Shown here: positions 2,792 through 56,338 of the stretch, in pieces
Position numbering within the stretch: the stretch's first letter is position 1
Layout: each line of letters begins with the position of its first letter
Source: Streptomyces sp. WM6386
GTDB lineage: Bacteria; Actinomycetota; Actinomycetes; Streptomycetales; Streptomycetaceae
Length of the DNA stretch: 64,000 bases
Direction: 5' to 3'
NCBI RefSeq assembly: GCF_000972385.1
Contig: NZ_JXTE01000004.1
Span: 1 to 64,000, forward strand
Notes under the pieces: generated by a model
Told to the model about the DNA's origin: nothing
The model's input: only the letters and a program-made list of their open reading frames with translations
The model's database searches: none
Made by a program: the position numbers and the translations under genes

Positions 2792-4225
2792 TCATCGCAG
2801 TTGGTCCTTCAACACCTTGCCCGTGGCGCCGATCGGCAACTCCTCCCGGAACTCCACGGATCGGGGCACCTTGTAACCGGCCATGCGTTCCCGGCTCCAG
2901 GCGATCAGCTCCTGCGCCGACACCCGGCCGTGCCGTACGACGAAGGCCTTGCCCACCTGACCCATCCGCGTGTCGGGGACGCCCACCACCGCGGCCTGGG
3001 CGACCGCCGGGTGCTGGAGCAGGAAGCCCTCGATCTCGGCGGGGTAGGCGTTGAAGCCGCCCACCACGAACATGTCCTTCTTCCGGCCGACGATCCTGAG
3101 CCGTCCCCGGTCGTCGAGCGTGCCGAGGTCACCGGTGTGCAGCCAGCCGTCAGGGTCGATCGCCTCGGCCGTCGCCGCGGGGTCGTCGAGGTAGCCGAGC
3201 ATGACGCTGTAGCCGCGCACCAGCACCTCGCCGTCGTCGGCGATACAGACCTCCAGACCGTCGCAGGGGAGGCCGACGGTCGTGGCGATCTCCTCGAAGG
3301 AGTCGCCGGAACGGGATGCCGTGACCGTGCCGGCCTCGGTGAGGCCGTAACCGGTCATGATCGTCCGGAAGGGCAGTTCGCTTCTGATCCGGCGGATGAG
3401 CTCCACGGGGATGTCCGCCGACCCGGTCACCGCCGCCCGCAGCGACGACAGGTCCCGGCCGCCCGTCGCCTCCGCCTCCAGGAGGCAGTGGTAGAGCGTG
3501 GGCGGGCCGGGCAGCATCGTCACCCGTTCGCGTTCGACCAGGTCGAGCACGTGGTCCACGTCGAAGACCGGCACCGGGAGGATGGTCGCGCCCCGGATCA
3601 GGGAGGCGATACAGCCCGCCTTCCAGCCGAACATGTGGAAGAACGGGTTGACGATCAGATAGCGGTCGCCCTCGCGCAGGTCCGCCAGCTCGCACCACTC
3701 CGCGAACAGCCGAAGGTTCTGCGCGTGGCTCATCAGGACGCCCTTGGGGCGGCCCGTCGTCCCCGAGGTGAAGATGATGTCGGAGAGGTCCGATCCGCTC
3801 ACCTCGCACTCGTACGGTGGTCCGCTCGCGAGGAAGTCCGACTTCAGGTCGATCACCGGCACGCCGGGCGGCCCGGTGAACTCCAGGCCCAAAAAGCCCT
3901 GTTGGACGAGCAGGGCCTTCACTCCGCCCCGTACGACGATGTCGTGCGCCTCGTCCGCCTTGAACCGGGTGTTGACCGGCACCAGCACCCCGCCGGCGGC
4001 GAGCAGGCCGAATCCCGCGACGAGCCACTCCGCGGAGTTGGGCGCCCAGATCGCCACCCGGTCGCCCTTTTCCACCCCCAGTGCCTTGAAGGCTCCCGCC
4101 GCTTTCCGTACCCGCTCGGCGAGTTCGGCGAAGGTGAGCCGCAGCGGGCCGTCGACGACCGCTTCGGCGTCACCGAAGCGGTCGGCGGCGGTGAGCACCA
4201 TCCGGGGGATGGACTCCCAGGTCAT
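2792..4225 (-). CDS. Acyl-CoA synthetase (class I adenylate-forming ligase)
   Basis: 477 residues. Activates a carboxylic acid to acyl-AMP and then acyl-CoA. All family motifs are visible: IIFTSGTTGRPKGVL (P-loop), GYGLTEAGT, GWLHTGDLG with the ribose-binding Asp, GRKKDMFVVGGFNAYPAEIE in the hinge, and the C-terminal lysine in ATGKVLKDQL. The start ATG overlaps the amidohydrolase stop by 4 bp (ATGA), indicating translational coupling. A second, more distant ligase is at 5439-7001, so the island may activate two different acids or intermediates. Substrate unknown; closest in feel to FadD/cyclohexanecarboxylate-type ligases. Confidence 0.92.
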   Translation of the reverse strand: MTWESIPRMVLTAADRFGDAEAVVDGPLRLTFAELAERVRKAAGAFKALGVEKGDRVAIWAPNSAEWLVAGFGLLAAGGVLVPVNTRFKADEAHDIVVRGGVKALLVQQGFLGLEFTGPPGVPVIDLKSDFLASGPPYECEVSGSDLSDIIFTSGTTGRPKGVLMSHAQNLRLFAEWCELADLREGDRYLIVNPFFHMFGWKAGCIASLIRGATILPVPVFDVDHVLDLVERERVTMLPGPPTLYHCLLEAEATGGRDLSSLRAAVTGSADIPVELIRRIRSELPFRTIMTGYGLTEAGTVTASRSGDSFEEIATTVGLPCDGLEVCIADDGEVLVRGYSVMLGYLDDPAATAEAIDPDGWLHTGDLGTLDDRGRLRIVGRKKDMFVVGGFNAYPAEIEGFLLQHPAVAQAAVVGVPDTRMGQVGKAFVVRHGRVSAQELIAWSRERMAGYKVPRSVEFREELPIGATGKVLKDQLR

Positions 4226-5400
4226 GCGGGGATCAGCCGGGCCAGATTGCCGCCCATGATCTTGGCCTGGTCGGGCACGGCCAGCCCCTGGATGGCGTTG
4301 ACGTACGAGGTCGGCTGGGACAGGCCCTCGGGGTGCGGGTAGTCCGAGCCGAACAGGATGCGGTCGACGCCGATGAGGTCGACAAGGCCGCCCAGGTCCT
4401 CCTCGTAGAACGGGCTGACGTGGATGCTGTTCTTCACGGCCTCCACCGGGTCGCCGAGGAACTCGTTCGGCATCTTCTTGTGGACGTCGGCGAGTTGGTC
4501 GAGCAGCGGGGCCACCCACGAGGAGCCGTTCTCGATGAGGGCGATCTTCAGCTCGGGGAAGCGGAACAGCGCGCCGTGGCACACCCACGCGGCCACCGCG
4601 TCCTGGATCGGCCGCCATTCCGAGACCGTACGGAAGGCGTTGGGCTTGAACGGCAGCATCTCGCCCCGGCCGCCCTCCCAGTCGCTCGTGTACCTCGCGT
4701 AGCCGCTGTCGGAGGAGTGCATCGCGACCAGGACCCCGGTCTCCACGACCCGCTTCCAGAAGGGGTCGAACTCCTCCAGCGCGAACGAGCGCGAGCCGCC
4801 GTGCCCCGGCACCGGGGCCGGGCGGATGAGTACGGCCTTCGCGCCGCGCTCCACCGCCCAGTCGAGCTCGGCGATCGCCTTCTCGACGATCGGCAGGGTG
4901 ATCACGGGCGTGGTGAGGATCCGGTCCTTGTAGTTGAACGACCAGGTCTCGTACAACCACTCGTTGAGCGAGTGGATCACCGCGTGGATCAGCTCCGGGT
5001 GATGCCGCATCCGCTCCTCGATGAGACTCGCGAGCGTCGGGAACATCAGCGTCCGCTGTACGCCGAGTTCGTCCAGCAGCTCAAGGCGCGGGCCCGGTTC
5101 ACGGAACGCCGGGATCGAGCGCATCGGGTCGCCGAAGATCTCCCGGCGTGACTTGCCGTCGGGGTTGCCGACCCGGAAGTACTCCTCCATCGCGCCCGGG
5201 CGGGCGACGACCTCGAAGGTCGGGTTAGGGATGTACTCGCTGATCCGGCCCAGGATCGCGATCTTCGTACGGCCGTTGACCTGTACGTACTGGATCGCGC
5301 CCTCGTACTCCTTGGGGAGGTGCTTCGTCAGCGCCTCCTCGGTCTCGTACAGGTGGTTGTCCGCGTCGAAGAGCGGATACGGCAGCGCACGCGACGTCAT
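4222..5400 (-). CDS. Amidohydrolase-2 family metal-dependent hydrolase/decarboxylase
   Basis: 392 residues, TIM-barrel amidohydrolase of the ACMSD/resorcylate-decarboxylase branch. FDADNHLYE near residue 11 holds the first metal ligands, a histidine follows in LVAMHSSDSG, and the late Asp lies in ILFGSDYPHPEG. A perfect AAGGAGG site precedes ATG 5400. Members of this branch decarboxylate aromatic acids or hydrolyse C-N/C-C bonds, and they are common in actinobacterial clusters with P450, lipid-transfer-like thiolase and CoA-transferase genes. It is coupled by ATGA overlap to the downstream ligase, so its product is plausibly the acid that is CoA-activated (inference). Confidence 0.88.
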   Translation of the reverse strand: MTSRALPYPLFDADNHLYETEEALTKHLPKEYEGAIQYVQVNGRTKIAILGRISEYIPNPTFEVVARPGAMEEYFRVGNPDGKSRREIFGDPMRSIPAFREPGPRLELLDELGVQRTLMFPTLASLIEERMRHHPELIHAVIHSLNEWLYETWSFNYKDRILTTPVITLPIVEKAIAELDWAVERGAKAVLIRPAPVPGHGGSRSFALEEFDPFWKRVVETGVLVAMHSSDSGYARYTSDWEGGRGEMLPFKPNAFRTVSEWRPIQDAVAAWVCHGALFRFPELKIALIENGSSWVAPLLDQLADVHKKMPNEFLGDPVEAVKNSIHVSPFYEEDLGGLVDLIGVDRILFGSDYPHPEGLSQPTSYVNAIQGLAVPDQAKIMGGNLARLIPA

Positions 5401-5409
5401 GAGACCCTC

Positions 5410-5437
5410 CTTGGCGAATTGCGAGAATCATATTCTC
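5410..5437. promoter_or_regulatory. Candidate operator upstream of the amidohydrolase unit
   Basis: The 38-bp gap between two minus-strand genes contains the perfect palindrome GAGAATCATATTCTC (5423-5437). Positions 5410-5428 also match 12 of 19 positions of the stronger sites at 7052 and 12876 (conserved right half GAGAAT). Likely the same repressor, with an internal promoter for the genes at 5400-2487. Confidence 0.5.
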
Positions 5438-5438
5438 A

Positions 5439-7001
5439 TCATGTGCGTACGGCAATGTCCTGCCGGAGTCGGAACTTCTGGACCTTGCCGCTCGCGGTCC
5501 TCGGGAAGTCGGTGACGCCGTGCAGCTCCTCGGGCCACTTCTGCCTGGCCAGGCCGGAGTTGTCGAGGTGGGCGCGCATCTCGTCGAGGCCGGGGAGGCG
5601 ATGGCCGGGCAGCATGCGCAGGACGGCGGCGGCGTGTTCGCCGAGCCGGGCGTCGGGGGCGGCGACCACCGCGGCCTCCGCGACGCCGGGCAGGGTGAGG
5701 AGGACTTCCTCGACCTCCAGGGCGCTGACGTTCTCGCCGCCGCGGATGATGATGTCGGACTTGCGATCGGTGATCGTGAGATAGCCGTCCTCGTCGAGGA
5801 CGCCGACGTCACCGGTGTGGTACCAGCCCTCCTCGTCGAAGAACCGCTCGGTCAGGGCCGGATCGGTGTAGCCGAGGCAGAGGTCCGGGCCGCGGCTGAG
5901 TACTTCGCCGTCCTCGGCCAGACGTACCTCCACGCCCGGCCGCGCGTCCCCGTCCGTGAAGAGGCGCTTGGCCTCCGGGGCGTCGAACCGTGACGACGTG
6001 ACCGAGGGGTGCTCGGTGCTCCCGTAGGACCGGAAGACGTGCACCCCGAGACCGGCCAGACGGGTCGTGACCGCCGCCGGGACCGACGAACCGCCCAGCC
6101 CCGCGTACCTCATGTGCCGCAGATGGGCCCGGGTGAAGTCGGGGTGGTCGAGCAGGCTCGTCACGTAATAGGGGGCGCCGCCGCCGATGTGGAGGTTGTG
6201 CCGGGTCATCAACTCCAGTGCCTGGCCCGGGTCCCACACGTCGGTGAGATGGACCGGGGAGCCCTCCAGGACCGGGATGAGGAAGGCGTTCACCATGCCG
6301 ATGAAGTGGCCGACCGGGGCCGCGGTGAGCTGATGGCCGCGGTCGGGCGGGTAGCTCGCGGTGAGCTGACGGGTCTCGTGGCCGAGCGTCTGGTGGCTGT
6401 GGACCACGCCCTTCGGGTCGCGGGTCGTGCCCGAGGTGAAGGCGATGAGGGCGGGGCCCGTCGGATCGGCGGGCAGGGCGGCGGGGAGCGGGGTGGCGCT
6501 CAGCAGGTCGTCGAAGTCCTCGACGCGCGGCTCCCGTCGCGTGGCACCGCCCACCACGCCGACCACGGGCACGTCCGCGCACAGGTCGGCCCGGAACTCC
6601 AGCCTGCCGAACCGCTCGGCGGCCACGAAGGCCTTCGGCTTCACCGCTTCGAGGATGTACCCGACCTCCTTGCGCCCGTAGAAGTGGACGATCGGCACGA
6701 CGGCCGCACCGAGAAACGCCGAGGCCCAGAACACCGCCGCGGCCTCCATCCAGTTGGGCAACTGGAAGGCGACGGTGTCGCCGGGACCCACGCCCCGCTC
6801 GCGCAGTCCGCTCGCCAGACGGCGCGCGACCTGCTCGACGTCATGGAACGTTCCGGACCAGGGGCGGACGGCCGAGTGCACCCGGAACTCGGCGCCGGGC
6901 GCAGCCGCGAGGCCTCGTGCGAGCAGGTCCCCGATCGTGTCCCGGGTCCACCAGCCCTCTGCCTCGTAGCGCTTGGCCAACTCTGCGGGGATCCTTCGCA
7001 T
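5439..7001 (-). CDS. AMP-dependent acyl/aryl-CoA ligase
   Basis: 520 residues of the class I ligase fold, resembling cyclohexanecarboxylate-CoA ligases (AliA type). Motifs: LIAFTSGTTRDPKGVVHSH, SYGSTEHPSVTSS, GWYHTGDVG, DRKSDIIIRGGENVSALEVE and the catalytic lysine in TASGKVQKFRLR. ATG 7001 has GGGAGGTAG 8 nt upstream and begins MRRIPAELAKRYEAEGWW, typical for this subgroup; an upstream extension to 7046 lacks support. Transcribed divergently from the enoyl-CoA hydratase across a 94-bp region with the operator at 7052-7070. Confidence 0.92.
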   Translation of the reverse strand: MRRIPAELAKRYEAEGWWTRDTIGDLLARGLAAAPGAEFRVHSAVRPWSGTFHDVEQVARRLASGLRERGVGPGDTVAFQLPNWMEAAAVFWASAFLGAAVVPIVHFYGRKEVGYILEAVKPKAFVAAERFGRLEFRADLCADVPVVGVVGGATRREPRVEDFDDLLSATPLPAALPADPTGPALIAFTSGTTRDPKGVVHSHQTLGHETRQLTASYPPDRGHQLTAAPVGHFIGMVNAFLIPVLEGSPVHLTDVWDPGQALELMTRHNLHIGGGAPYYVTSLLDHPDFTRAHLRHMRYAGLGGSSVPAAVTTRLAGLGVHVFRSYGSTEHPSVTSSRFDAPEAKRLFTDGDARPGVEVRLAEDGEVLSRGPDLCLGYTDPALTERFFDEEGWYHTGDVGVLDEDGYLTITDRKSDIIIRGGENVSALEVEEVLLTLPGVAEAAVVAAPDARLGEHAAAVLRMLPGHRLPGLDEMRAHLDNSGLARQKWPEELHGVTDFPRTASGKVQKFRLRQDIAVRT

Positions 7002-7051
7002 GTGCCTGCTACCTCCCGTACGGTGCGGCTCCGACCGGCGGCGCATACGCT

Positions 7052-7070
7052 ATTCTCGGATTTGGAGAAT
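7052..7070. promoter_or_regulatory. Operator ATTCTC-N7-GAGAAT between divergent genes
   Basis: Perfect 6-bp inverted repeat with central GGATTTG. It lies 51 bp from the ligase start (7001) and 26 bp from the hydratase start (7096), so one bound dimer could control both. It shares TTCTCGGATT and GAGAA with the site at 12876-12894. Confidence 0.65.
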
Positions 7071-7095
7071 GCCAATATCCCTCGGGGGGAATCAC

Positions 7096-7815
7096 GTGAT
7101 TGACCTCGAACTGGACGACGGCCTGGCCGTCCTCACGATCGACCGCCCGCACGCCCGCAACGCCATCTCGCTCGACACCATGGGCGAGTTGGAGAAGGCG
7201 CTCGACGCGGCGGAGGGTGCGCGGGCACTGGTGGTCAAGGGCGCCGGAGAGCGGGCGTTCGTCTCCGGGGGAGACCTCAAGGAACTCGCCGCGATCCGCA
7301 CCGAGGACGAGGCGGTCGCGATGGCCCGGCGGATGCGGGGCGTCTGCGACCGCATCGCCGCCTTCCCCGGACCCGTTGTCGCCGCGCTCAACGGACATGC
7401 CCTGGGCGGCGGGGCCGAGGTCGCCGTGGCCGCCGACATCCGGGTCGCCGCGGACGACATCAGGATCGGCTTCAACCAGGTGACTCTGGAGATCATGCCC
7501 GCGTGGGGCGGTGCGGAGCGGCTGGCCGCGCTGGTGGGGCGGGGGAGGGCGCTGATGCTCGCGGGGAGCGGAGCCGTACTCGACGCCGCGGAGGCGCAGC
7601 GCCTCGGACTCGTCGACCAGGTGATTGCCCGCGCCGCTTTCGAAGAAGGCTGGCGTGCCCTGGCCAGATCCCTCGCGACGGTTCCAGCCGGTGAGGTCAA
7701 GCGTGTTGTCTCCGACGGCACTTCGGCCGACGATGCGGTACGCGCTTTCGCTCGGCTGTGGGTGGCCGACGCGCACTGGTCGGCGGCGGAACGGCTACTG
7801 GCACGCGGAAAGTGA
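7096..7815 (+). CDS. Enoyl-CoA hydratase/isomerase family protein
   Basis: 239-residue crotonase-fold enzyme acting on CoA thioesters. Visible: HARNAISLDTMGELEKAL, the oxyanion-hole segments AFVSGGDLKELA and ALNGHALGGGAEVAVAADIR, and an acidic residue in FNQVTLEIMPAWGGAERL at the usual catalytic position. GTG 7096 is preceded by a GGGGGGA purine run and begins MIDLELDDGLAVLTIDRPHA; longer in-frame starts overlap the divergent ligase. Single-gene unit opposite the ligase, in keeping with hydration or isomerisation of the acyl-CoA that the ligase makes. Confidence 0.9.
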   Translation: MIDLELDDGLAVLTIDRPHARNAISLDTMGELEKALDAAEGARALVVKGAGERAFVSGGDLKELAAIRTEDEAVAMARRMRGVCDRIAAFPGPVVAALNGHALGGGAEVAVAADIRVAADDIRIGFNQVTLEIMPAWGGAERLAALVGRGRALMLAGSGAVLDAAEAQRLGLVDQVIARAAFEEGWRALARSLATVPAGEVKRVVSDGTSADDAVRAFARLWVADAHWSAAERLLARGK

Positions 7816-7956
7816 CGCGCCCCGCGAAGGCCTGGGACGCGCTCCTACGCACCAACCAGTTCGCCTGCACATGGTCTTCCTGGCCTCGGCCCTGTCCTCC
7901 TACGTCACCGGCACCCCTCCACTCCGACGCCGGCACCCACGCCTCGTCGGGGTGGT

Positions 7957-8544
7957 TCAAATGGCCGGGGTCGGAGTGGGCGAACCATGCCCCGACGCAT
8001 CTGGTCGAGGACCGGCAAGCTCCACGGTGAGGCGCATCCGGACGTAGTGCCCGTCACCCGGACCGGGCCGCCGGTGCCCGTCGGGCCGCCAGCCGTGCCG
8101 GGCATAGAAGCCCTGGGCCCGGCTGTTGCGCTCCCAGGCCTCCAGCACCCCGGCCGTCAAGGACGCGTCCCGAAGGTGCCGCACGAACGCCGCGTGCAGC
8201 CGGGCGCCGATCCCCTGTCCCCAAGAACCCGGGCGGACGTGGATCTGGTACAGCTGCCCGGCGGCCGCGGCGTCCATATCGGCGTCATGTGGTGGCCCCA
8301 TCGCCAGGACGCCCACCAGCTCGGCCTCCCGTACGGCGCACAGGACCGTCTTGGAGTCGTTGCGCACGGCGCGCAGCCACATCTCCCGCCGCCCGGACCA
8401 TGCCTCAGGTGAGGTGAGCTCCGGCTCGCACCATCCGCCCGCCTCGTAGTACGCGGCACGCGCCCACGTGTGCAGATCGGTGATGGCGTCCAGGTCGGCG
8501 AGGCCCGCGGGGCGCAGCGAGGTGGTCACGCGTGTACGACGCAC
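7957..8544 (-). CDS. GNAT-family N-acetyltransferase
   Basis: About 195 residues. The acetyl-CoA pyrophosphate loop is clear in IHVRPGSWGQGIGARLHAAF, followed by AWERNSRAQGFYARHGWRPDG, the standard GNAT C-terminal strands. GTG 8544 and GTG 8529 are both possible starts; GAGGTG lies close to the first. Located 24 nt after the SDR stop, so it may be the distal gene of the 12849-7957 unit. Its substrate is not indicated and it may be unrelated to the catabolic pathway. Confidence 0.85.
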   Translation of the reverse strand: MRRTRVTTSLRPAGLADLDAITDLHTWARAAYYEAGGWCEPELTSPEAWSGRREMWLRAVRNDSKTVLCAVREAELVGVLAMGPPHDADMDAAAAGQLYQIHVRPGSWGQGIGARLHAAFVRHLRDASLTAGVLEAWERNSRAQGFYARHGWRPDGHRRPGPGDGHYVRMRLTVELAGPRPDASGHGSPTPTPAI

Positions 8545-8568
8545 ACACCTCGCCGCGCAGTTCCCGCC

Positions 8569-9330
8569 TCAGGTGTTGCGCCCCCCGTTCACCCCGATCA
8601 CCTGCCCGGTGACGTACCCGGCCTCCTCGGACACCAGGAAGGAACACGCGGCGGCGATGTCCTCCGGTCGCCCGGCCCGCCGTACCGGAGTCAGCTCGGC
8701 GTGATGGTCCACCGAGCCGCCCAGCAGTCCGCGCTCCTCCGAGGCCCGCAACATGGGGGTGTCCACGAACCCCGGAGGGATCGTGTTCACCGTGATGCCC
8801 GCCGGGCCGAGCTCCAGGGCCAGCGACTTGGTGAGGCCGATGAGACCGGCCTTCGAGGCGACGTAGTGGGCCATGTACTGCTGGCCCGACTGGGCGCTGG
8901 AGGAGGAGATATTGACGATGCGGCCCCAGCCCGCGTCCTTCATGCCGGGCACGACGGCCTGGCAGAAGTAGAACGGGCCGTTGAGGTTCACGGCCATGAT
9001 CCGGTTCCAGGACTCGTCGGTGATCTTCAGAAAGCCCTGGGTGGCGGACACCCCGGCATTGTTGACCAGGACGAGCGCCGGCCCGCCCAGCGTCTCCCGC
9101 ACCCGCCGTACGGCGTCGTCCACCTGCGCACGGTCCGACACGTCGACCCCGCCGAGGGCGACCGCCTCGTGCCCCTTGCGGCGGGCCTCCTCGGCCACCC
9201 GCTCGGCCGCCTCCGTGTCGATGTCGAGGACGGCGGTCGCGAAACCGTCCTCGGCGAGCCGGTGCGCGATGGCCCGCCCGATGCCCGAACCGCCGCCCGT
9301 GACCAGGGCGGTACGCCGCTCCCCGGTCAC
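8569..9330 (-). CDS. Short-chain dehydrogenase/reductase (FabG-like)
   Basis: 253 residues. Rossmann motif TGGGSGIGRA (11-20), VNNAGVS, catalytic ISSSSAQSGQQYMAHYVASK (Ser, YxxxK) and the C-terminal YVTGQVIGVNGG. The GTG start overlaps the dioxygenase stop by 4 bp. Probably oxidises a hydroxyacyl-CoA or alcohol of the pathway with NAD(P). Fourth gene of the unit aldehyde dehydrogenase - CoA-transferase - dioxygenase - SDR. Confidence 0.92.
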   Translation of the reverse strand: MTGERRTALVTGGGSGIGRAIAHRLAEDGFATAVLDIDTEAAERVAEEARRKGHEAVALGGVDVSDRAQVDDAVRRVRETLGGPALVLVNNAGVSATQGFLKITDESWNRIMAVNLNGPFYFCQAVVPGMKDAGWGRIVNISSSSAQSGQQYMAHYVASKAGLIGLTKSLALELGPAGITVNTIPPGFVDTPMLRASEERGLLGGSVDHHAELTPVRRAGRPEDIAAACSFLVSEEAGYVTGQVIGVNGGRNT

Positions 9331-10163
9331 GCGACGAGCTCCTCGCCCGCGAGGGAGGTGCGGTGCATGAGCCGGGAGGAGGCCTCGCCGTAGGGCAGGG
9401 CGCGGTGCAGCATGCCGGTGTTGTCCCAGATGACGAGGTCGCCCCGGCGCCAGCGGTGGCGGAGGGTGAACTCCGGCCGTGTCGCGCGGTCCAGGAGGTC
9501 GTCCAGAAGCGCACGGCCCTCGGCGGCCGGGCGGCCGACGACCTCGCCCGCCGTGGCTCCGATGAGGAGGGACCTGCGGCCACCGGCCCGGGTCCAGACG
9601 AGCGGCTGCTCGCGCGAAGGGTTGCGGTCCCAGGCGGCCCGTTCCCTCGGCGACGGATCGGGGGTGACGAGCAGTTGGGAGGCCGCGAAGCCGTGCACGA
9701 CCCGCAGGCCGTCGAGCTCCGCCTTCTCGGTGTCCGACATCGCCTCGTACGCGGCGAACGTGTTGGCGAACTCCGTGTCGCCACCTCCGTCGTCCGGTAC
9801 CTGGCGTGCCGTCAGAAGTGTGGCCTTGTTGGGCACTTCGTCCGTCGTCCCGTCGATGTGCCAGTGAAAGGTGCCCTCGCGACAGGCGGCCAGCGGACTC
9901 TTCGAGGGGTCGCGGGTGATGCGCTGGATCTCGCAGTGCGTCGGATGGCCGCCCAGGGGAAGCGGTACGACCTGTCCGAGGAGCCGGCTGAAGGCCACCA
10001 GGTCGTCATCGCCGATGTGCGCCTCGCGGTAGATCACGACCCCCCGTCGGTCCAGGGCTGCCCGGCACTCCTCGGCGACTTGCCTGTCGACCAGCCTGTC
10101 CCCGACCAGTGCGGTGATCTCGACGCCGGTGGTCGGGGTGATGTCGGAGACGGTGACTGTCAT
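9327..10163 (-). CDS. TauD/TfdA-family 2-oxoglutarate-dependent dioxygenase
   Basis: 278 residues. Fe(II) ligands of the facial triad appear as HxD at His102/Asp104 (FHWHIDGTTDE) and His253 (DNTGMLHRAL), and the 2-oxoglutarate arginine lies in SSRLMHRTS (264-268). ATG 10163 follows AAAGGGAA; a longer reading frame runs into the CoA-transferase. The family hydroxylates unactivated carbons, as in taurine or 2,4-D degradation. Here it is co-transcribed with CoA-transferase and SDR genes, so it may hydroxylate or cleave a side chain of the pathway substrate. Confidence 0.9.
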   Translation of the reverse strand: MTVTVSDITPTTGVEITALVGDRLVDRQVAEECRAALDRRGVVIYREAHIGDDDLVAFSRLLGQVVPLPLGGHPTHCEIQRITRDPSKSPLAACREGTFHWHIDGTTDEVPNKATLLTARQVPDDGGGDTEFANTFAAYEAMSDTEKAELDGLRVVHGFAASQLLVTPDPSPRERAAWDRNPSREQPLVWTRAGGRRSLLIGATAGEVVGRPAAEGRALLDDLLDRATRPEFTLRHRWRRGDLVIWDNTGMLHRALPYGEASSRLMHRTSLAGEELVA

Positions 10164-10189
10164 GCACGTTCCCTTTCTGTGACGAGGAC

Positions 10190-11404
10190 TCAGGTCACCG
10201 CTCCCGCGGCCTTGAGCGCGAGGATGCGGTCCCAGTCCAGGCCGAGCTCCAGGAGGATCTCCTCGGTCTGGGCCGCGAACTCCGGTGCCGGACCGCTCGG
10301 TTGCGGAGCCTCGACGTCGAACTGCACCGGACTCGCCGCCAGTTCCAGCGCCCCGGCCCGCACGACGTACTCGTTGGCCCGCACCTGCGCGTCGCCGCCC
10401 ACCTGCAGGGAGTCCTGCACCGGAGCCCAGGGCCCGGCCAGCGTCGCGAAGCGCTCGGTCCACTCGGCCAGGGGGCGGCCCGCGATCACCTCGCGCAGGA
10501 TCTTGACCGCCTCCTCGGTGTGCGCGGCGATGTCCGGGGCGGTGGCGAAGCGCGGGTCCTCGGCCAGTTCGGGCCGGTCGATGTGGCGGCACACATCGGC
10601 CCAGAACTTGCCGGGCTGCATCATCACGAAGGCGAGATGGCGGTCGTCGGCCGTGCGGTACAGCCCGGACAGCGGGTTGGTGGGGGAGCCGTGTCCGCCC
10701 GCGGGCGGCGCGATCATCGGCCGCTCCAGGTGGAGCGACAGGGCGATCCCGTGGCCCATCGCCCAGACGCCGCTGCCCAGCAGGGAGACGTCCACGACCG
10801 GTGCCTCGCCCGTGCGCTCGCGCTGGAGCAGGGCCGCCGCGATGCCGCCGGCGAGGTTGGTGCCGGAGATGGTGTCGCCGTAGGCCGGTCCGGGCGGCGG
10901 GATCATCCCCTCGATGCCGGGCGGGGTGAGGCTGGCGGCCGTGCCGGCCCGGGCCCAGAAGGCGGTCATGTCGTAGCCGCCCTTCTCCGCCTCCCGGCCG
11001 CGCGGGCCGAGCGCGCTGCCCCGGGCGTAGACGATCCGCGGGTTCACCTCCCGGATGTCGTCCACGTCGATCCCGAACTTCCGCCGGGCCGAGGGCAGCA
11101 AACTCGTCAGGAACACGTCCGAGCGGCGGGCCAGGTCGTACAGCACCTCCCGGCCCTCGGGCCGCGCCATGTCGAGGCCGATACTGCGCTTGCCCCGGTT
11201 GGCGTGCTCGACGTTGGGGTTGGGATCACCCTCGACCTTGAACGTGCCGGTCTGCCTCAGACCGCGCTGCGGATCGCCGTTGACCGCGTGCTCCACCTTG
11301 ACGACGTCGGCGCCCCAGTCGGCGAGGACGGCACCGGCGGACGGCACGAAGCCGTACATCGCGACCTCGAGAACCCGTATGCCACTCAGAGGTCCGGCGC
11401 TCAT
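10190..11404 (-). CDS. Class III CoA-transferase (CaiB/BaiF family), second copy
   Basis: 404 residues. GIRVLEVAMYGFVPSAGAVL, NRGKRSIGLDMARPEGREVL and GLYRTADDRHLAFVM match CaiB/BaiF proteins of the alpha-methylacyl-CoA racemase/CoA-transferase group. ATG 11404 overlaps the aldehyde dehydrogenase stop by 4 bp; the region upstream in the same frame is antisense-like in composition. Together with the gene at 1158-2348 it gives the island two CoA-transferases in addition to two ligases, which suggests recycling of CoA between pathway acids. Substrate not deducible. Confidence 0.9.
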   Translation of the reverse strand: MSAGPLSGIRVLEVAMYGFVPSAGAVLADWGADVVKVEHAVNGDPQRGLRQTGTFKVEGDPNPNVEHANRGKRSIGLDMARPEGREVLYDLARRSDVFLTSLLPSARRKFGIDVDDIREVNPRIVYARGSALGPRGREAEKGGYDMTAFWARAGTAASLTPPGIEGMIPPPGPAYGDTISGTNLAGGIAAALLQRERTGEAPVVDVSLLGSGVWAMGHGIALSLHLERPMIAPPAGGHGSPTNPLSGLYRTADDRHLAFVMMQPGKFWADVCRHIDRPELAEDPRFATAPDIAAHTEEAVKILREVIAGRPLAEWTERFATLAGPWAPVQDSLQVGGDAQVRANEYVVRAGALELAASPVQFDVEAPQPSGPAPEFAAQTEEILLELGLDWDRILALKAAGAVT

Positions 11405-12849
11405 ACGACCACCGCCCCGAAGGTCTTGCGCTCCATGAACTCCTCCAGCCCGTCCACGCCCTTCTCCCGCCCGATGCCCGACTGCTTGTAGCCGCCGAAG
11501 GGTGTGTCGGAGAAGAAGTAGTTGCCGCCGTTGATGCTGATCGTGCCCGTGCGGATGCGCCGGGCCAGGGCGATCGCCCGTTCCTGGTCGGCGCTGTGGA
11601 CCGCGCCGGACAGGCCGTACACCGAGTCGTTGGCGATCCGGACCGCGTCGTCCTCGTCGTCGTACGGGACGATGGCGAGGACCGGACCGAAGACCTCTTC
11701 CTGTGCCAGCTCGCTCGTCGGGTCCACGCCGGTGAGGAGCGTCGGCGTGTAGAAGAAGCCCGGGTCCATCCGCTCGCCGCCGGTCACCAGCGTCGCGCCC
11801 GCCTCGACGGCCCGCCGGACCATGCCGTCGACCTTGTCGCGCTGCCGCTCGCTGATCAGCGGGCCCATATAGGTGCGGGGGTGTGCGGGATCGCCGTACC
11901 GCACCCGCTCCAGCGCGGACGCGACCTGCTCGGCGATCGCGTCGTGGTGCGCGCGCGGCACCAGCATCCGCGAGGTGATCGCACAACTCTGGCCCGCGTG
12001 CAGACAGATCATGTACGCCGCGTACATCGAGGCGGCCGCGAAGTCGGCGTCGTCGAGGACGATCAGGGCCGACTTGCCGCCGAGTTCGAGGAAGACCCGC
12101 TTCACGGTGCCGCTCGCGGCGGCCATGATGCGGCGGCCGGTCGCGGTGGACCCGGTGAAGCTGACCATGTCGACGTCCGCGTGGGCGGTGAGCAGCTCAC
12201 CGACGGTCGCGTCGGACGAGGTCAGTACGTTCACCACGCCCGCCGGGATGTCCGTGTGCTCCGCGATCAGCTCGCCCAGGGCGAGGGTGATCAGCGGGGT
12301 GTCCGGGGCGCCCTTGAGGACGACCGTGCAGCCCGCGGCGAGCGCCGGGGCCAGCTTCGCCAGGGCGAGTTGGGTGGGGTAGTTGTACGGGACGATCGCG
12401 GCGAGGACCCCGCCGGCCTCCTTCTCCACCCAGCGGCGGTGCCGCTGACCCAGGTACTCGACGACGCCGAGATCCTCGGTCAGGGGGTGGGTCTTGAGGA
12501 GGTCCGCGTAGTAGCGGACCAGGCCTACCGGCTCGTCGAGCTGCTGGCTGTGCGTGAGCATCCGGGGCGCGCCGACCTCGGCGATGGTCAACTCCCGCAG
12601 CTCCTCCAGGTGTTCGGTGAGCGCGGTGTGGAGCTGGCCGAGGCAGTGGATGCGGAACTCGGTGTCGGTGGACCAGTGCGTGGTGTCGAACGCGCGGCGG
12701 GCGGCCGCGACGGCGGCCTCGGCCTGCTCGGCGGTGGCGTCGGGGGCGTGGCCGAGCAGGCCGCCGGTGGTGGGGTTGAGCGTGGCGAACGTCCGGTCGG
12801 CCTCGACGAGCCGCCCGTCGATGAGCAGCCGCCTGTCCGGGGGTGGCAT
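11401..12849 (-). CDS. NAD(P)-dependent aldehyde dehydrogenase
   Basis: 482 residues of the ALDH superfamily. Conserved elements: PYN (Asn156), FTGSTATGRRI (cofactor), Glu255 in FLELGGKSA and the nucleophile Cys289 in HAGQSCAITSR; C-terminal FGGYKQSGIGREKG. ATG 12849 has AAGGGGACGGG upstream; the 24-residue extension to 12921 would read through the operator. First gene of a four- or five-gene minus unit. Probably oxidises an aldehyde from a dioxygenase, P450 or aldolase step to an acid. Confidence 0.92.
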   Translation of the reverse strand: MPPPDRRLLIDGRLVEADRTFATLNPTTGGLLGHAPDATAEQAEAAVAAARRAFDTTHWSTDTEFRIHCLGQLHTALTEHLEELRELTIAEVGAPRMLTHSQQLDEPVGLVRYYADLLKTHPLTEDLGVVEYLGQRHRRWVEKEAGGVLAAIVPYNYPTQLALAKLAPALAAGCTVVLKGAPDTPLITLALGELIAEHTDIPAGVVNVLTSSDATVGELLTAHADVDMVSFTGSTATGRRIMAAASGTVKRVFLELGGKSALIVLDDADFAAASMYAAYMICLHAGQSCAITSRMLVPRAHHDAIAEQVASALERVRYGDPAHPRTYMGPLISERQRDKVDGMVRRAVEAGATLVTGGERMDPGFFYTPTLLTGVDPTSELAQEEVFGPVLAIVPYDDEDDAVRIANDSVYGLSGAVHSADQERAIALARRIRTGTISINGGNYFFSDTPFGGYKQSGIGREKGVDGLEEFMERKTFGAVVV

Positions 12850-12875
12850 CCCGTCCCCTTCCCGATGGAAATGGC

Positions 12876-12894
12876 GTTCTCGGATTGAGAGAAC
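12876..12894. promoter_or_regulatory. Operator GTTCTC-N7-GAGAAC upstream of the ALDH unit
   Basis: Perfect 6-bp inverted repeat with central GGATTGA, 26 bp upstream of the ALDH start. Nearly identical to the site at 7052-7070 (shared TTCTCGGATT and GAGAA). Confidence 0.65.
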
Positions 12895-13008
12895 AGTACA
12901 GGGGCCCAACTTTCGCGTCACGACCCCGGTCTGGATCGGTCACGCATGTCACGTGCTGACACAAAGTCGCCACCCGGACCTTCCGGGTACTGCAGATTTG
13001 AAAGTATG

Positions 13009-13027
13009 GTTCTCGCATTCGGAAGGG
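13009..13027. promoter_or_regulatory. Degenerate copy of the same operator, plus-strand unit
   Basis: GTTCTCGCATTCGGAAGGG agrees with the strong sites over TTCTCG, ATT and GGA but its right half is weak. It lies 25 bp before the first start of the 13053-20266 operon, on the other side of the divergent region from 12876-12894. Confidence 0.4.
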
Positions 13028-13035
13028 AGATTCTT

Positions 13036-13056
13036 GTGATCCGGGTTGGAACGTGA
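13036..13056 (+). other. Six-codon upstream ORF overlapping the next start
   Basis: GTG at 13036 follows GGAAGGGAG at good spacing and encodes MIRVGT before TGA (13054-13056), which overlaps GTG 13053 of the next gene (GTGA). Its residues resemble the true N terminus MTRVG. Either a coupling leader peptide or a relic of a small duplication of the start region. Confidence 0.35.
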
Positions 13057-13850
13057 CGCGCGTCGGGCTCGTAGGAGCCGGCCGCATGGGACGCCCCATG
13101 ATCCGCAGACTCGCCGAGGCGGGACACGCGGTGTGTGTCCTGGGCCGGTCGGCCGATTCCCGTGCCGCCCTCGCCCAGGAGTCGGCCCGAGTGGTGGGCC
13201 GGGTCGCCGAGGTCGGCGAAGGCGCCGATGTCGTACTGGTCTGCGTCCACACCGACGCACAGGTGCGTGAAGTCTGCCTCGGCAGCGGCCTGTTGGAGAC
13301 TCTGCCGACCGGCGCCGTCCTCGTCGTGCACACCACCGGCGACCCGCACACCGTCGAGGAGATCGCACAACGCGGCATCGACGTGATCGACGCCCCCGTC
13401 AGCGGCGGCCCGCCCGACGTCGCCGCCGGTCACCTCACCCTCTTCGTGGGCGGCGCCGACGACACCGTCGCCCGCGTCCGCCCCGTCCTGCGCAGCTACG
13501 GCGACCCGGTGCTGCATGTCGGCCCGCTGGGCGCGGGACAGCGCGTGAAGCTCGTCAACAACACCGTCTTCGCCGCCCAGATCGGACTGCTCTCGCACGC
13601 GGCCCGGCTCGGCGCACAACTCGGCCTGGACGAACGGCTCCTGCTGAACGCCCTCACCCACGGCAGCGCGTCGAGCCGCGCACTGGCCGGAGTCGTACGC
13701 CGTGGCTCGGTCGCCGAATTCGCCCGGTCCACGGCCGAGTTCCTCGGCAAGGACCTCGATGTCGTCCGTGCGGTCACAGCCGAACTCGGCGCCGATCTCG
13801 GCGCACTGGCCCAGGTGCTCGACGCGGCGACGCCCGCGAGCACGCCCTGA
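13053..13850 (+). CDS. NAD-binding 3-hydroxyisobutyrate dehydrogenase-like reductase
   Basis: 265 residues, beta-hydroxyacid dehydrogenase family. N-terminal Rossmann motif VGLVGAGRMGRPMIRRL, substrate loop DAPVSGGPPDV near residue 115, and the catalytic-lysine helix GAGQRVKLVNNTVF. The native Shine-Dalgarno for GTG 13053 is weak (TTGGA), while a strong one serves the six-codon ORF that ends on this start, so translation may be coupled. First gene of the plus operon. A paralogue closes the same operon at 19448-20266, perhaps for two hydroxyacid steps. Confidence 0.88.
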   Translation: MTRVGLVGAGRMGRPMIRRLAEAGHAVCVLGRSADSRAALAQESARVVGRVAEVGEGADVVLVCVHTDAQVREVCLGSGLLETLPTGAVLVVHTTGDPHTVEEIAQRGIDVIDAPVSGGPPDVAAGHLTLFVGGADDTVARVRPVLRSYGDPVLHVGPLGAGQRVKLVNNTVFAAQIGLLSHAARLGAQLGLDERLLLNALTHGSASSRALAGVVRRGSVAEFARSTAEFLGKDLDVVRAVTAELGADLGALAQVLDAATPASTP

Positions 13851-13917
13851 CCCCATCGACCTGCGGCGCCCATGGGCGTCCCCGAACCAACCGACCGACA
13901 ACGTAAGGACACCACCC

Positions 13918-14778
13918 ATGGGACGAGTTGAGGGCAAGGTCGCGTTCATCACCGGCGCCGCTCGCGGGCAGGGCCGCAGCCACGCCGTACGCCTCGCCGA
14001 GGAGGGCGCCGACATCATCGCGGTGGACCTGTGCCGCGACTACGAGACCGTCGGCTATCCGATGGCCACCCCCGAGGACCTCAAGGAGACGGTCCGCCTG
14101 GTCGAGGAGCAGGGCCGCCGTGTCGTCGCCCGCCAGGCCGACGTACGGGACGTGGCACAACTGCGCGAGGCGCTGGAGGCCGGGATCGCCGAACTCGGCG
14201 GTCTGGACATCGTGGTGGCCCAGGCCGGGATCGCCCCCCTGCGTGGCGAACCCAAGCTCCAGGCCTGGTGCGACGCGATCGACGTCGACCTGATCGGCAG
14301 CATCAACGCCATCCAGATCTCCCTTCCGCACCTGCGCGAGGGCGCCTCCGTGATCGCCACCGGCTCCACCGCCGCCCTCATGGAGCACGGCATCGTCGAC
14401 ACCCCCGGCTCCAACCCGGGCGGCTCCGGCTACGTCTACGCCAAGCGCGCCCTGTCGGAGTACATCCACGAACTCGCCCGCAACCTCGCCCCGTTGAAGC
14501 AGCGCGCCAACGTCGTCCATCCCACCAACGTGGACACCCGGATGCTCCAGAGCGAGCCGATGTACAAGTCCTTCCGCCCCGACCTCGAACACCCCACGCG
14601 CGAGGACGCCGAGCCCGTGTTCGCCGTACAGCAGGCCATGCCGATCGCCTACGTCGAGCCGGAGGACATCAGCAACGCCGTGCTCTTCCTCGCCTCCGAC
14701 GAGGCCCGTTACATCACCGGCACCCAACTTCGCGTCGACGCCGGCGGATACCTCAAGTGGTACGACTGGCGCCGCTGA
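13918..14778 (+). CDS. SDR oxidoreductase of the mycofactocin-coupled type
   Basis: 286 residues. The opening GKVAFITGAARGQGRSHAVR, followed by ADIIAVD and the insertion YPMATPEDLKETVRLVEEQG, is the hallmark of SDRs with a non-exchangeable nicotinamide that pass electrons to mycofactocin. Catalytic Tyr172 and Lys176 lie in GYVYAKRAL. ATG 13918 was chosen from the family-typical N terminus MGRVEGKVAFIT. It is followed 36 nt later by a ferredoxin and a P450, so it probably oxidises an alcohol produced by the P450. No mycofactocin synthesis genes are in this window. Confidence 0.85.
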   Translation: MGRVEGKVAFITGAARGQGRSHAVRLAEEGADIIAVDLCRDYETVGYPMATPEDLKETVRLVEEQGRRVVARQADVRDVAQLREALEAGIAELGGLDIVVAQAGIAPLRGEPKLQAWCDAIDVDLIGSINAIQISLPHLREGASVIATGSTAALMEHGIVDTPGSNPGGSGYVYAKRALSEYIHELARNLAPLKQRANVVHPTNVDTRMLQSEPMYKSFRPDLEHPTREDAEPVFAVQQAMPIAYVEPEDISNAVLFLASDEARYITGTQLRVDAGGYLKWYDWRR

Positions 14779-14814
14779 GCGTCAGGGACAACAGAATCGA
14801 CAGGGAGGCAAGCC

Positions 14815-15006
14815 GTGAAGGTCCGCGTCGATCCGGAGCGCTGCCAGGGCCACACGCTCTGCTGGATGACCGCTCCGAAGGCGTTCCAGCTGGACGAGGT
14901 GGACGGCCACTCCTCGGCCGTCAGCGAGGACGTACCGGCCGATCAGGAAGAGGACGTGCGGGAAGCCGTGCACTCGTGCCCGGAAAGGGCCATCCAGATC
15001 TTCTGA
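14815..15006 (+). CDS. Small ferredoxin, P450 partner, CxxHxxC type
   Basis: 63 residues. Cluster ligands Cys10, Cys16 and Cys55 (CP) are present, but the usual second cysteine is His13 (CQGHTLC), a variant known among actinobacterial P450-linked 3Fe-4S/4Fe-4S ferredoxins. GTG 14815 follows AGGGAGG. Located 13 nt before the P450 gene, so it very likely delivers electrons to it. Confidence 0.9.
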   Translation: MKVRVDPERCQGHTLCWMTAPKAFQLDEVDGHSSAVSEDVPADQEEDVREAVHSCPERAIQIF

Positions 15007-15019
15007 AGGGAAAGGTCCC

Positions 15020-16384
15020 ATGAGCGAGGCCGCGAGCGGCGACGACCGCAGGAAACACCAGGTGCACTTCGACCGGCACACCCCCGAGTACCGCCACCGG
15101 TTCGAGGAGATCACCCACGAGTTGCACGCCAAGTGCCCCATCGCCTGGACCGACACCCACGGCGGCCACTGGGTCGCCAGCGGCAACCGCGAGGTCTTCG
15201 AACTGGCCCGGTCCGCCGAGTTCCTCTCCAACGACCATGACGTCAAGGGGGAGCGGCGCGGCTACAAGGGCATCACCATCCCCTCGCCGCCACGTGCGCG
15301 TGAAGTCCAGGGCGGTTTCCTGGAGATGGATCCGCCGGAGCAGCGCCACTACCGGCAGACCCTGAACCCGTATCTCTCCCCGGCCGCGGTCGGCCGCTGG
15401 GTGCCCTTCGTGGACGAGGTGGTGCGCGCCTGCCTCGACGAGAAGATCGAGCAGGGGCGGATCGACTTCGTCGACGACCTCGCCAACATCGTGCCGGCCG
15501 TCCTCACCCTGGCGATGATGGGCATCCCGCTGAAGGACTGGACCGTCTACAACGAACCGGCCCATGCCTCGGTCTACACTCCGCCCAACTCGCCCGACAT
15601 GCCACGCGTCGCCGAGATGAGCCGGAACATGGGGATGGGCCTGTACAAGGCCATCCAGGAGATCCGCCAGAACCGCCGGCCGGGACTGATCGACGCGCTC
15701 GTGCACGCCGACATCAACGGCAGCACCCCGCCCGACGAGGAACTGACCGGTGTCCTGGCCCTGCTCATCGGCGGCGGCTTCGACACCACGACCGCCCTCA
15801 CCGCACACGCCCTGGAGTGGCTCGGCGAGAACCCCGAGGACCGCGACCGGCTCAGCCGCGAGCGGGACAGCCTGCTGGACTCCGCCACCGAGGAGTTCCT
15901 GCGCTTCTACGCGCCCGCCCCCGGGGACGGCCGTACCATCTCCGCCGACTGCGAGATCGCCGGTCAGCGCTTCGAGGAGGGCGAACGCCTCTGGCTGTCC
16001 TGGGCGATGGCCAACCGCGACCCGTCCGTCTTCCCCGATCCCGACCGCGTCGACCTCGAACGCAAGGGCAACCGGCACAGCAGCTTCGGCCTCGGCATCC
16101 ACCGCTGCATCGGCTCCAACGTCGCCCGTACGGTGTTCAAGCGCATGGTCACGGCGGTGCTGGACCGCATGCCCGACTACCGCTGCGACCCCGACGCCAG
16201 CGTCCACTACGAGACCATCGGCATCATCCAGGGCATGCGCCACCTCCCGGCCGGCTTCACCCCCGGCAAGCGCCTGGGGCCCTCGCTGGAGGAGACCCTG
16301 GAGATCCTCCAGAAGGCGTGCGACGAACAGCGCCTCGCCGAGCCCGTCACCGTCCGCACGGGCCGGGCGAACATCGCCCGCTGA
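15020..16384 (+). CDS. Cytochrome P450 monooxygenase
   Basis: 454 residues. The I-helix oxygen-activation motif GGGFDTT is at 251-257, ExxR at 292-295 (EEFLR) and the heme loop FGLGIHRCIG with axial Cys363. LEMDPPEQRHYRQTLNPYLS (101-120) is the substrate-side region typical of bacterial class I P450s. ATG 15020 follows GAAGGGAAAGG. A slightly long C terminus (residues 420-454) extends past the family core. The position after a ferredoxin and an SDR, and before a DUF35-thiolase fusion, suggests hydroxylation of an alicyclic, terpenoid or steroid-like acid; the substrate is unknown. Confidence 0.93.
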   Translation: MSEAASGDDRRKHQVHFDRHTPEYRHRFEEITHELHAKCPIAWTDTHGGHWVASGNREVFELARSAEFLSNDHDVKGERRGYKGITIPSPPRAREVQGGFLEMDPPEQRHYRQTLNPYLSPAAVGRWVPFVDEVVRACLDEKIEQGRIDFVDDLANIVPAVLTLAMMGIPLKDWTVYNEPAHASVYTPPNSPDMPRVAEMSRNMGMGLYKAIQEIRQNRRPGLIDALVHADINGSTPPDEELTGVLALLIGGGFDTTTALTAHALEWLGENPEDRDRLSRERDSLLDSATEEFLRFYAPAPGDGRTISADCEIAGQRFEEGERLWLSWAMANRDPSVFPDPDRVDLERKGNRHSSFGLGIHRCIGSNVARTVFKRMVTAVLDRMPDYRCDPDASVHYETIGIIQGMRHLPAGFTPGKRLGPSLEETLEILQKACDEQRLAEPVTVRTGRANIAR

Positions 16385-16399
16385 GAGGGAGGACACCCA

Positions 16400-18043: not shown

Positions 18044-18939
18044 ACCACAGCTCCCTCGCCATCGACGGCATCCCCCTGTCGTACCGGGCGAGTTGGGCCC
18101 CGCTGCCGCGCGCCGTCGTCCTCGCCCTGCACGGCGGCGGCACCGACTCCGCGTACTTCGACTGCCCGGGCCGCCCCTCGCTGTCGTTGCTGCGGACGGC
18201 TCCGGCGCTCGGCTTCACGGTGATCGCCCTCGACCGGCCGGGCTACGGCACCTCCCACGCCCACCAGGAGAAGGTGACCGACTCGGTCCACCGCGTCGAA
18301 CTGACCTACGCGGCCCTTGACCTGCTGCTCGCCTCCCGCCCGCACGGCGCGGGCGTCTTCCTCATGGCGCACTCGGCGGGCAGTGAACTGGCCATCCGCA
18401 TGGCGGCCGAGGAGCGTGGCGGTGCCCTGCTGGGGCTGGAGGTCGCCGGGACCGGACGGGAACACCATCCGCGCTTCACCGAGCGCTGGGCGCACCACGG
18501 GGAGCTGGGCATCCGTCGGCCGGCGCGCGGCCGGATGCGCGATCTGCTGTGGGGACCCAGCCATCTGTACCCGGCCGACGTCTTCGGCGGGACGGCCATC
18601 GGCGCCCCCTCGCCCGCCTACGAGGCCCAGGCGCGTGACTGGGTACGGGAGTTGCCCGAGCTGGCCGCCCGGGTGCGCGTCCCCGTGCACTACACCCTCG
18701 GCGACCACGAGGCGGTGTGGAGTCCCGGTGAGCGGGCGCTGAAGGACTTCGCCTCGGTGTTCACTTCGTCACCTCGCGTCAGGGTTCACGAACAACCTGA
18801 CAGTGGCCACAATCTGAGCCTGGGTCACTCGGCCCGGGCTTACCACCTCGGAGTCCTGTCGTTCGCCGAGGAGTGCGCGGTGTTCCGCGAGAACGCGCGC
18901 CCCGAGGGCGTCGACTCCTCGCAGGGAAGGGCGGGTTGA
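18040..18939 (+). CDS. Alpha/beta hydrolase
   Basis: 299 residues. Fold landmarks: LALHGGGTDSAYFDC (oxyanion), nucleophile elbow MAHSAGSELAIRMA, acid in LGDHEAVW and His in DSGHNLSLGHSAR. GTG 18040 overlaps the fusion-protein stop by 4 bp; the longer frame upstream lies within the thiolase gene and is ruled out. Possibly a thioesterase, lactonase or C-C hydrolase for the pathway, judged only by position. Confidence 0.88.
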   Translation: MNHSSLAIDGIPLSYRASWAPLPRAVVLALHGGGTDSAYFDCPGRPSLSLLRTAPALGFTVIALDRPGYGTSHAHQEKVTDSVHRVELTYAALDLLLASRPHGAGVFLMAHSAGSELAIRMAAEERGGALLGLEVAGTGREHHPRFTERWAHHGELGIRRPARGRMRDLLWGPSHLYPADVFGGTAIGAPSPAYEAQARDWVRELPELAARVRVPVHYTLGDHEAVWSPGERALKDFASVFTSSPRVRVHEQPDSGHNLSLGHSARAYHLGVLSFAEECAVFRENARPEGVDSSQGRAG

Positions 18940-18944
18940 GCGCC

Positions 18945-27608: not shown

Positions 27609-27637
27609 TTTCATTCCCGATGCTTTACGCTGTCGTC

Positions 27638-56302: not shown

Positions 56303-56338
56303 TTGCCTTACATCGCTAGTACGCTACAGTTTCGTACT
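56303..56338 (+). promoter_or_regulatory. Promoter/operator of a leaderless TetR gene
   Basis: TTGCCT (56303-56308), 17 nt, TACAGT (56326-56331), 7 nt, GTG 56339. The palindrome AGTACG-N9-CGTACT (56318-56338) covers the -10 and the start point and abuts the start codon. Confidence 0.7.

Follow-up and report, generated by a model that had tools for sequence, protein, structure and literature searches.

The window analysed here comprises 64,000 nucleotides of Streptomyces sp. WM6386 (contig NZ_JXTE01000004.1, positions 1 to 64,000), and its left part carries an island of catabolic genes with short palindromes in front of several transcription units. An initial annotation had assigned one palindrome family to the amidohydrolase, ligase/hydratase, aldehyde dehydrogenase (ALDH) and cytochrome P450 units, with ATTCTC-N7-GAGAAT and GTTCTC-N7-GAGAAC as its clearest members, and had placed the regulator outside the window. 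We conclude that the four places are probably operators of one TetR-type repressor, most likely a protein that we call TetR-B and that is encoded on another contig of the same genome (C46), the putative unit being the 15-bp palindrome GAGAATnnnATTCTC, which often has a weaker partner at a distance of 22 or 21 bp. The candidate operators and the genes that they adjoin are as follows.

4222-5400, minus strand: amidohydrolase (Amidohydro_2; Pfam PF04909), adjoining operator 1
5423-5437: putative operator 1, perfect 15-mer GAGAATCATATTCTC, 22 bp upstream of the amidohydrolase start; 28.4 bits, with a site in 13/13 ligase loci, own included
5439-7001, minus strand: AMP-binding acyl-CoA ligase (Pfam PF00501), adjoining operator 2
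7043-7057: putative operator 2a, weak 15-mer GCATACGCTATTCTC, 41 bp upstream of the ligase start and 22 bp from 2b; 7.7 bits, letters ATACGCTATTCTC kept in genomes G122 and G084
7065-7079: putative operator 2b, 15-mer GAGAATGCCAATATC, 16 bp upstream of the enoyl-CoA hydratase start; 16.1 bits, with a 15-mer of at least 10 bits in 13/13 gaps, own included
7096-7815, plus strand: enoyl-CoA hydratase family protein (Pfam PF00378), divergent from the ligase
11401-12849, minus strand: aldehyde dehydrogenase (TIGR04284 661 bits, under the cut-off of 775), adjoining operator 3
12867-12881: putative operator 3a, 15-mer GGAAATGGCGTTCTC, 17 bp upstream of the ALDH start; 12.7 bits, 17.4 bits at the equivalent place in G122
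12889-12903: putative operator 3b, GAGAACAGTACAGGG, a weak partner of 3a at a spacing of 22 bp; proposed from sequence and spacing, below the 7-bit matrix listing
13000-13014: putative operator 4, 15-mer GAAAGTATGGTTCTC, upstream of the unit of a 3-hydroxyisobutyrate dehydrogenase (HIBADH)-like protein, a short-chain dehydrogenase/reductase (SDR) and the P450; 13.3 bits, the 15-mer being unchanged in G122 (13.1 bits, flanks included) and in G084 (11.2 bits, flanks included)
13053-13850, plus strand: HIBADH-like protein (Pfam PF03446 and PF14833), first gene of the P450 unit, adjoining operator 4

A symmetric 21-bp matrix was trained solely on six sites of contig C46 and then run over the window. 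Its four best scores fell at 5423 (28.4 bits), 7065 (16.1), 13000 (13.3) and 12867 (12.7), so the four places before the amidohydrolase, ligase/hydratase, P450 and ALDH units were recovered with a matrix from another contig, in another register. A fifth match at 60989 (12.66 bits) is presumably due to chance. Overall, the window held five sites of at least 12 bits against 0.63 expected from 200 first-order shuffles, in which the best score averaged 12.0 bits with a 99th percentile of 17.9. The 5423 site alone is significant by score, and the other three therefore rest on conservation and position. An alternative explanation is that the sites are chance resemblances in AT-richer intergenic DNA, as the best scores of shuffled sequence span a range that includes three of the four; however, the sites are conserved at equivalent promoters in 13 loci and 185 of 199 genomes of the genus lack any exact copy, and we consider the probability of this explanation practically nil.

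The letters reported for ATTCTC-N7-GAGAAT (7052-7070), GTTCTC-N7-GAGAAC (12876-12894) and GAGAATCATATTCTC (5423-5437) were confirmed. The pattern TTCTC-N7-GAGAA matched the window twice, at the first two of these sites, and the 9.2-Mb genome at 14 places compared to 2 for the reversed control; TTCTCGNATTNNNNGAA without mismatches occurred in the genome only at 7053 and 12877, while up to two mismatches gave 226 matches on both strands versus 98 in the control. Despite this excess, it is very improbable that ATTCTC-N7-GAGAAT with the core TTCTCGGATT is the functional unit. The shared core proposed in the initial annotation was not conserved: in the most closely related orthologous gaps, those of G122 and G084, GCCACTG and GCAAAAC, respectively, stand in place of the spacer GGATTTG, with the outer flanks ATACGCTATTCTC and GAGAATGCCAATATC retained in both. 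Moreover, the N7 arrangement was present in just 3 of the 13 ligase/hydratase gaps (counted as N6/7: own, G122 and G084), whereas a 15-mer of at least 10 bits was found in all 13. We therefore dropped both this unit and its core. The putative operator unit is instead the 15-bp palindrome GAGAATnnnATTCTC, and ATTCTC-N7-GAGAAT can be read as the inner face, or junction, of two such palindromes 22 bp apart (15 + 7). The weaker relatives described at 13009-13027 and 5410-5428 were likewise in the wrong register, the conserved 15-mers being 13000-13014 and 5423-5437. In a spacing profile of 79 partly de-duplicated sites of at least 20 bits, taken from island stretches and 14 TetR-A loci (TetR-A being the second candidate regulator, see below), a second 15-mer occurred in excess at a distance of precisely 22 bp (z 8.8, 10 matches of at least 8 bits), with 7 such matches at 21 bp. 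A distance of 22 (or 21) bp would correspond to about two helix turns.

Within the genome, GAGAATNNNATTCTC has five exact copies, four on C46 (92-127 kb) and the fifth at window position 5423, compared to none in the control. With up to one mismatch there were 8 places (control 0), 7 of them at 5423 or between 92 and 127 kb on C46; with up to two there were 49 versus 15 in the control, and 12 of the 49 fell in C46 80-134 kb or in the window island. Isolated copies outside recognised islands were noted at L026 (C457:10861, the remaining place with up to one mismatch), L116 (G136) and L117 (G028).

Across the genus, the ligase (E <= 1e-100) was found in 12 of the 199 genomes, own included, at 13 loci, genome G110 having two. 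All 13 carried one site of at least 10 bits upstream of the amidohydrolase and another between ligase and hydratase, the 12 other loci belonging to the 11 other island genomes. For the sites of the ALDH and P450 units, the comparison covered fewer loci: G122 has both and G084 that of the P450 unit, in addition to mycobacteria-like loci; G084, which lacks the ALDH at this place, had no counterpart of operator 3a of at least 11 bits. The exact motif occurred in 14 of the 199 genomes, namely the 12 island genomes (2-11 copies each) and two others, and TetR-B (E <= 1e-25) also in 14, namely the 12 island genomes together with G011 and G128. The motif/island and TetR-B/island tables each gave a Fisher p value of 1.6e-17, treating related genomes as independent. 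Thus the motif tracks the island and its sites recur at orthologous promoters, which supports in silico the shared regulon initially proposed; a random frequency genome-wide and an absence from syntenic clusters, named beforehand as refuting observations, were looked for and neither was seen.

At class level, TetR-B (E <= 1e-40) gave 39 matches in 35 of 296 genomes, and 28 of the 29 loci scanned among these matches had a site of at least 14 bits within 300 bp upstream (L146 had none). Mycobacteria-like ALDH-CaiB loci with a window-like gene pair numbered 8 among the 30 examined of 51 listed ALDH matches; seven of the 8 had two sites in the ALDH/SDR gap with a divergent SDR, and none was found in L171, in which a P450 replaces the SDR. 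Named TetR-A relatives had a site of at least 15 bits anywhere in up to 20.7 kb in 20 of 21 loci (L043 had none).

The position of the sites would suit an operator. The 15-mers lie 16-41 bp upstream of start codons, so that a dimer bound there would obstruct the promoter, as is usual for TetR proteins. The same distance could be expected of a promoter element for an alternative sigma factor; however, the motif is an inverted repeat, stands in divergent gaps and at variable distance from the start, and it lies upstream of TetR-B in 41/45 loci and is tied to this protein across genomes. The chance that it is a sigma factor element is vanishingly small.

The window begins at base 1 of its contig, which places the regulator across the contig edge. 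A TetR gene that has a site of this kind next to it was sought, and contig C46 carries two: TetR-B (C46:99641-100339), with an exact site upstream at 100403, and TetR-A (C46:122336-122986), with 15-mers at 122321 and 122342 at its own start. Coordinates on C46 are those of the longest frames rich in G or C at third codon positions, chosen in the analysis rather than taken from annotation. C46 also encodes an acyl-CoA ligase, acyl-CoA dehydrogenases, hydratases, a thiolase, an ALDH, a P450, a Rieske oxygenase with its reductase and a branched-chain-type ABC (ATP-binding cassette) transporter. G122 and G084 each carry the genes of C46 and those at window positions 2792-20266 on one contig, largely colinear apart from missing genes such as a TauD gene in G122, the ALDH at the equivalent place in G084 and a GNAT gene in both. 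Rows of the hydratase query (window position 7097), which was one base out of frame, were left out of use here and in the scans of class-level TetR-B loci and mycobacteria-like ALDH loci. The C46 cluster and the island thus share an operator, keep it at equivalent promoters and are linked in relatives, as expected of one regulon, and the placement of the regulator outside the window is borne out by two candidate genes with their own sites. The GntR/CaiB segment at the contig edge (395-2396) had no syntenic counterpart in the G122, G084 and G013 stretches (GntR 0 matches, CaiB only 33-46% matches elsewhere) and is possibly a local insertion.

Genes within the window were less suitable as regulators. 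The local GntR (395-1141) is unlikely, having no match in the syntenic stretches of G122, G084 and G013, and the three window TetR genes (27620-28300, 56303-56911 and 62270-62965) were rejected, as no window site of at least 13 bits lies beyond 13014.

Between the two TetR proteins of C46, the outer base of the palindrome and the distribution across genomes point to TetR-B. For a dialect count, sites were chosen by their inner ten letters (at least 9 matching). Upstream of TetR-B, a core site was found in 41/45 loci and the outer base was G in 81/82 half-sites; upstream of TetR-A, a core match was found in 14/22 genes, own included, and the outer base was C in 22/34 half-sites, so that TetR-A sites lean to the dialect CAGAATnnnATTCTG. 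This contrast gave p 4e-14 with related sequences counted as independent, including eight near-identical TetR-A loci (Streptomyces or own). The four window sites have G at all 8 outer positions, as in the TetR-B dialect. Within the island genomes, TetR-B was found in 12/12 and had a core match of at least 9/10 upstream in 11/12, the site in G140 being weaker (14.9 bits), while TetR-A (alignment A1, E <= 1e-15, 22 genomes, up to 141 candidates scored in each) was found in 6/12. TetR-B is the better candidate on both grounds.

An alternative explanation is that TetR-A instead of TetR-B controls the window sites, or that both proteins bind them. Two sites adjoin the start of the TetR-A gene itself, both dialects have the core AGAATnnnATTCT in common, hybrid C/G sites occur at TetR-A promoters, and all seven Streptomyces TetR-A loci scanned contain an exact G-type site within the same 20 kb. 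However, the six island genomes with TetR-A include one in which it carries an in-frame TGA, while the sites are kept in all 12, and the outer C of 22/34 TetR-A half-sites is seen in none of the four window sites. We regard this alternative as unlikely, and a reading in which TetR-A alone regulates was given up, as the search for TetR-A missed it in 6 of the 12 genomes with the island and TetR-B was then found. The TGA-bearing relative is L097 (G140:C1:91000-91599), and the G140 island keeps its sites. Genome G110 has two island copies (C1, 7.73 Mb and 8.24 Mb), with TetR-B 26-27 kb from each and TetR-A found at one only.

TetR-B has the domain and fold of the TetR repressor family. It contains a TetR_N helix-turn-helix (PF00440, 38.3 bits, cut-off 24) with the residues QSLRSFY invariant in 25 close homologues aligned. 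The model of a homologue with 93% identity (P0003) showed an all-helical TetR fold (mean predicted local distance difference test score, pLDDT, 76.4), and the 50 fold matches listed for it were all TetR-family or transcription-regulator proteins by description, including FadR-type, EthR2 and RolR. No single ligand class stood out among these matches, and their mixture of FadR-type (acyl-CoA), EthR2 and RolR proteins leaves an acyl-CoA ligand as a guess.

We infer that TetR-B binds these sites and acts as a repressor. Without ligand, it would sit just upstream of the start codons and block transcription; it would be released by a ligand, which is probably an intermediate in the breakdown of the compound, such as an acyl-CoA. 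The operators would thereby control the right-hand section of one continuous catabolic supercluster, with the left-hand part and the regulator genes on C46.

Several observations weigh against the assignment of the window sites to one TetR-B regulon. The 7065, 13000 and 12867 sites are weak singly (12.7-16.1 bits), the outer G of the window sites is in part a product of the selecting matrix, which favours G, and TetR-A may regulate some of the sites. G011 and G128 have TetR-B without the exact motif (best nearby site 22.3 and 7.8 bits, respectively), while G028 and G136 have one motif copy each without the island. Protein presence and absence come from first looks in which the best 7, 14, 15 or 141 candidates per genome were scored. 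The join between C46 and the window is deduced from synteny in relatives, with a contig break and the GntR/CaiB segment between them. The spacing profile, drawn from the island stretches of several genomes, also has a minor peak at 28 bp (z 4.2, 6 matches).

A wider model is put forward only tentatively. Two divergent TetR paralogues with related dialects (GAGAATnnnATTCTC for TetR-B, CAGAATnnnATTCTG for TetR-A), which would partly meet on hybrid sites and on 21/22-bp tandem sites, may jointly control a supercluster of about 60-70 kb for the breakdown of a terpenoid- or steroid-like compound, partly conserved from Streptomyces to mycobacteria-like genomes. Beyond the genes next to the operators, the analysis covered the following window genes.

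2792-4225, minus strand: FadD3-family acyl-CoA ligase (NCBIfam PRK07656 755.6 bits, cut-off 657), downstream in the amidohydrolase unit; 84-85% identity in G084/G122
10190-11404, minus strand: CoA-transferase family III (CaiB type; Pfam PF02515), downstream of the ALDH
13924-14778, plus strand: mycofactocin-coupled SDR of the P450 unit (TIGR03971 348 bits, cut-off 300)
15020-16384, plus strand: cytochrome P450; best solved-structure matches P450cin, then CYP125, with P450cam lower
16400-18043, plus strand: ChsH2(DUF35)-Ltp2 type aldolase; matches 6ok1_B over residues 10-140 and 6ok1_A over 166-542

The P450, the aldolase fusion, the FadD3-family ligase, the mycofactocin-coupled SDR and the Rieske oxygenase of C46, which resembles carnitine and biphenyl oxygenases, suggest that the degraded compound is terpenoid- or steroid-like. 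The chain encoded at 16400-18043 covers both subunits of 6ok1 (ChsH2/DUF35 and the lipid-transfer protein Ltp2) and is a natural fusion.

KstR and KstR2 are TetR repressors of large actinobacterial steroid regulons, and the operator letters of KstR differ from GAGAATnnnATTCTC. KstR2 was among the weak sequence matches of TetR-B in the PDB (6.5e-5), while against the NCBIfam KstR equivalog TetR-B scored 24.1 bits (cut-off 280), and all scores of these TetR proteins against TetR-level NCBIfam models were far under the cut-offs. The best PDB sequence match of TetR-A was Mce3R (5.9e-8), a TetR-type protein linked to cholesterol metabolism. Mce3R is reported to be a double-TetR chain acting on asymmetric 25-bp sites (PMC11667970), whereas TetR-A has one TetR unit and palindromic sites. 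The fold search with the TetR-B model also matched FadR-type repressors of Bacillus and Thermus (E 7e-5 to 5e-4), several of them solved with acyl-CoA; at 15-23% identity and TM (template modelling)-scores of about 0.5, they share the fold class only.

We take the P450 - ALDH - SDR - HIBADH order to be that of Rv0766c-Rv0770. In mycobacteria-like loci with a Rv0768-like order, GAGAATnnnATTCTC was absent in 8/8 (best 0.4-6.6 bits), and the conserved palindrome there is GGACA-N2-TGTCC. In these loci (L170, L172-L177 and L179), a conserved palindrome pair, TGGACACNTGTCCAAG and CCGGACANNTGTCCAG, was observed. A TetR-like open reading frame preceded the ALDH in 3 of the 8, with a weak match to the TetR-A or TetR-B model (E 2e-4 to 6e-4), and none did so in the other 5. 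Conversely, no class-level TetR-B locus had an ALDH match within 1.5 kb (0/29), as would be seen for a TetR divergent from a Rv0768-type ALDH. The published motif X, with its Rv0767c-type TetR, was described in Mycobacterium sp. VKM Ac-1817D (PMC6593523) on the basis of an earlier motif survey (PMC4482099); similar to our case, that system has an autoregulated TetR with a palindrome in front of catabolic regulon genes for a P450, an ALDH, an SDR and additional TetR proteins. Sites of Rv0767c are reported to show GAC/GTC enrichment (PMC10312376), which agrees with GGACA-N2-TGTCC in the Rv0768-like loci. Identity of motif X with our operator was provisionally set aside on these loci, the comparison being made through gene order rather than the published logo.

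In the open-access literature searched, we found no description of the operator, and none of the papers listed concerned the gene cluster by title. A local autoregulated TetR regulon is of a known kind, while this gene set with this operator is new as far as the literature searched goes. The motif is rare and specific, with 185/199 genomes of the genus lacking an exact copy, and it can therefore serve as a tag that outlines a catabolic gene set across contig breaks. Two dialects with paired sites would make this a compact case of related TetR repressors sharing or dividing a regulon, and the motif points to two regulators and several promoters that are directly testable for an actinobacterial catabolic pathway.

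Two minor observations concern the island itself. A TauD-type dioxygenase gene (9327-10163) is present in G084 and gave no match in the G122 and G013 stretches. Ahead of the HIBADH-like gene, a purine-rich stretch is followed by a GTG that begins a frame of 6 codons (13036-13055) whose stop overlaps the HIBADH-like start; its counterpart in G122 has 13 codons, and the G084 frame runs from this GTG directly into the HIBADH-like protein.

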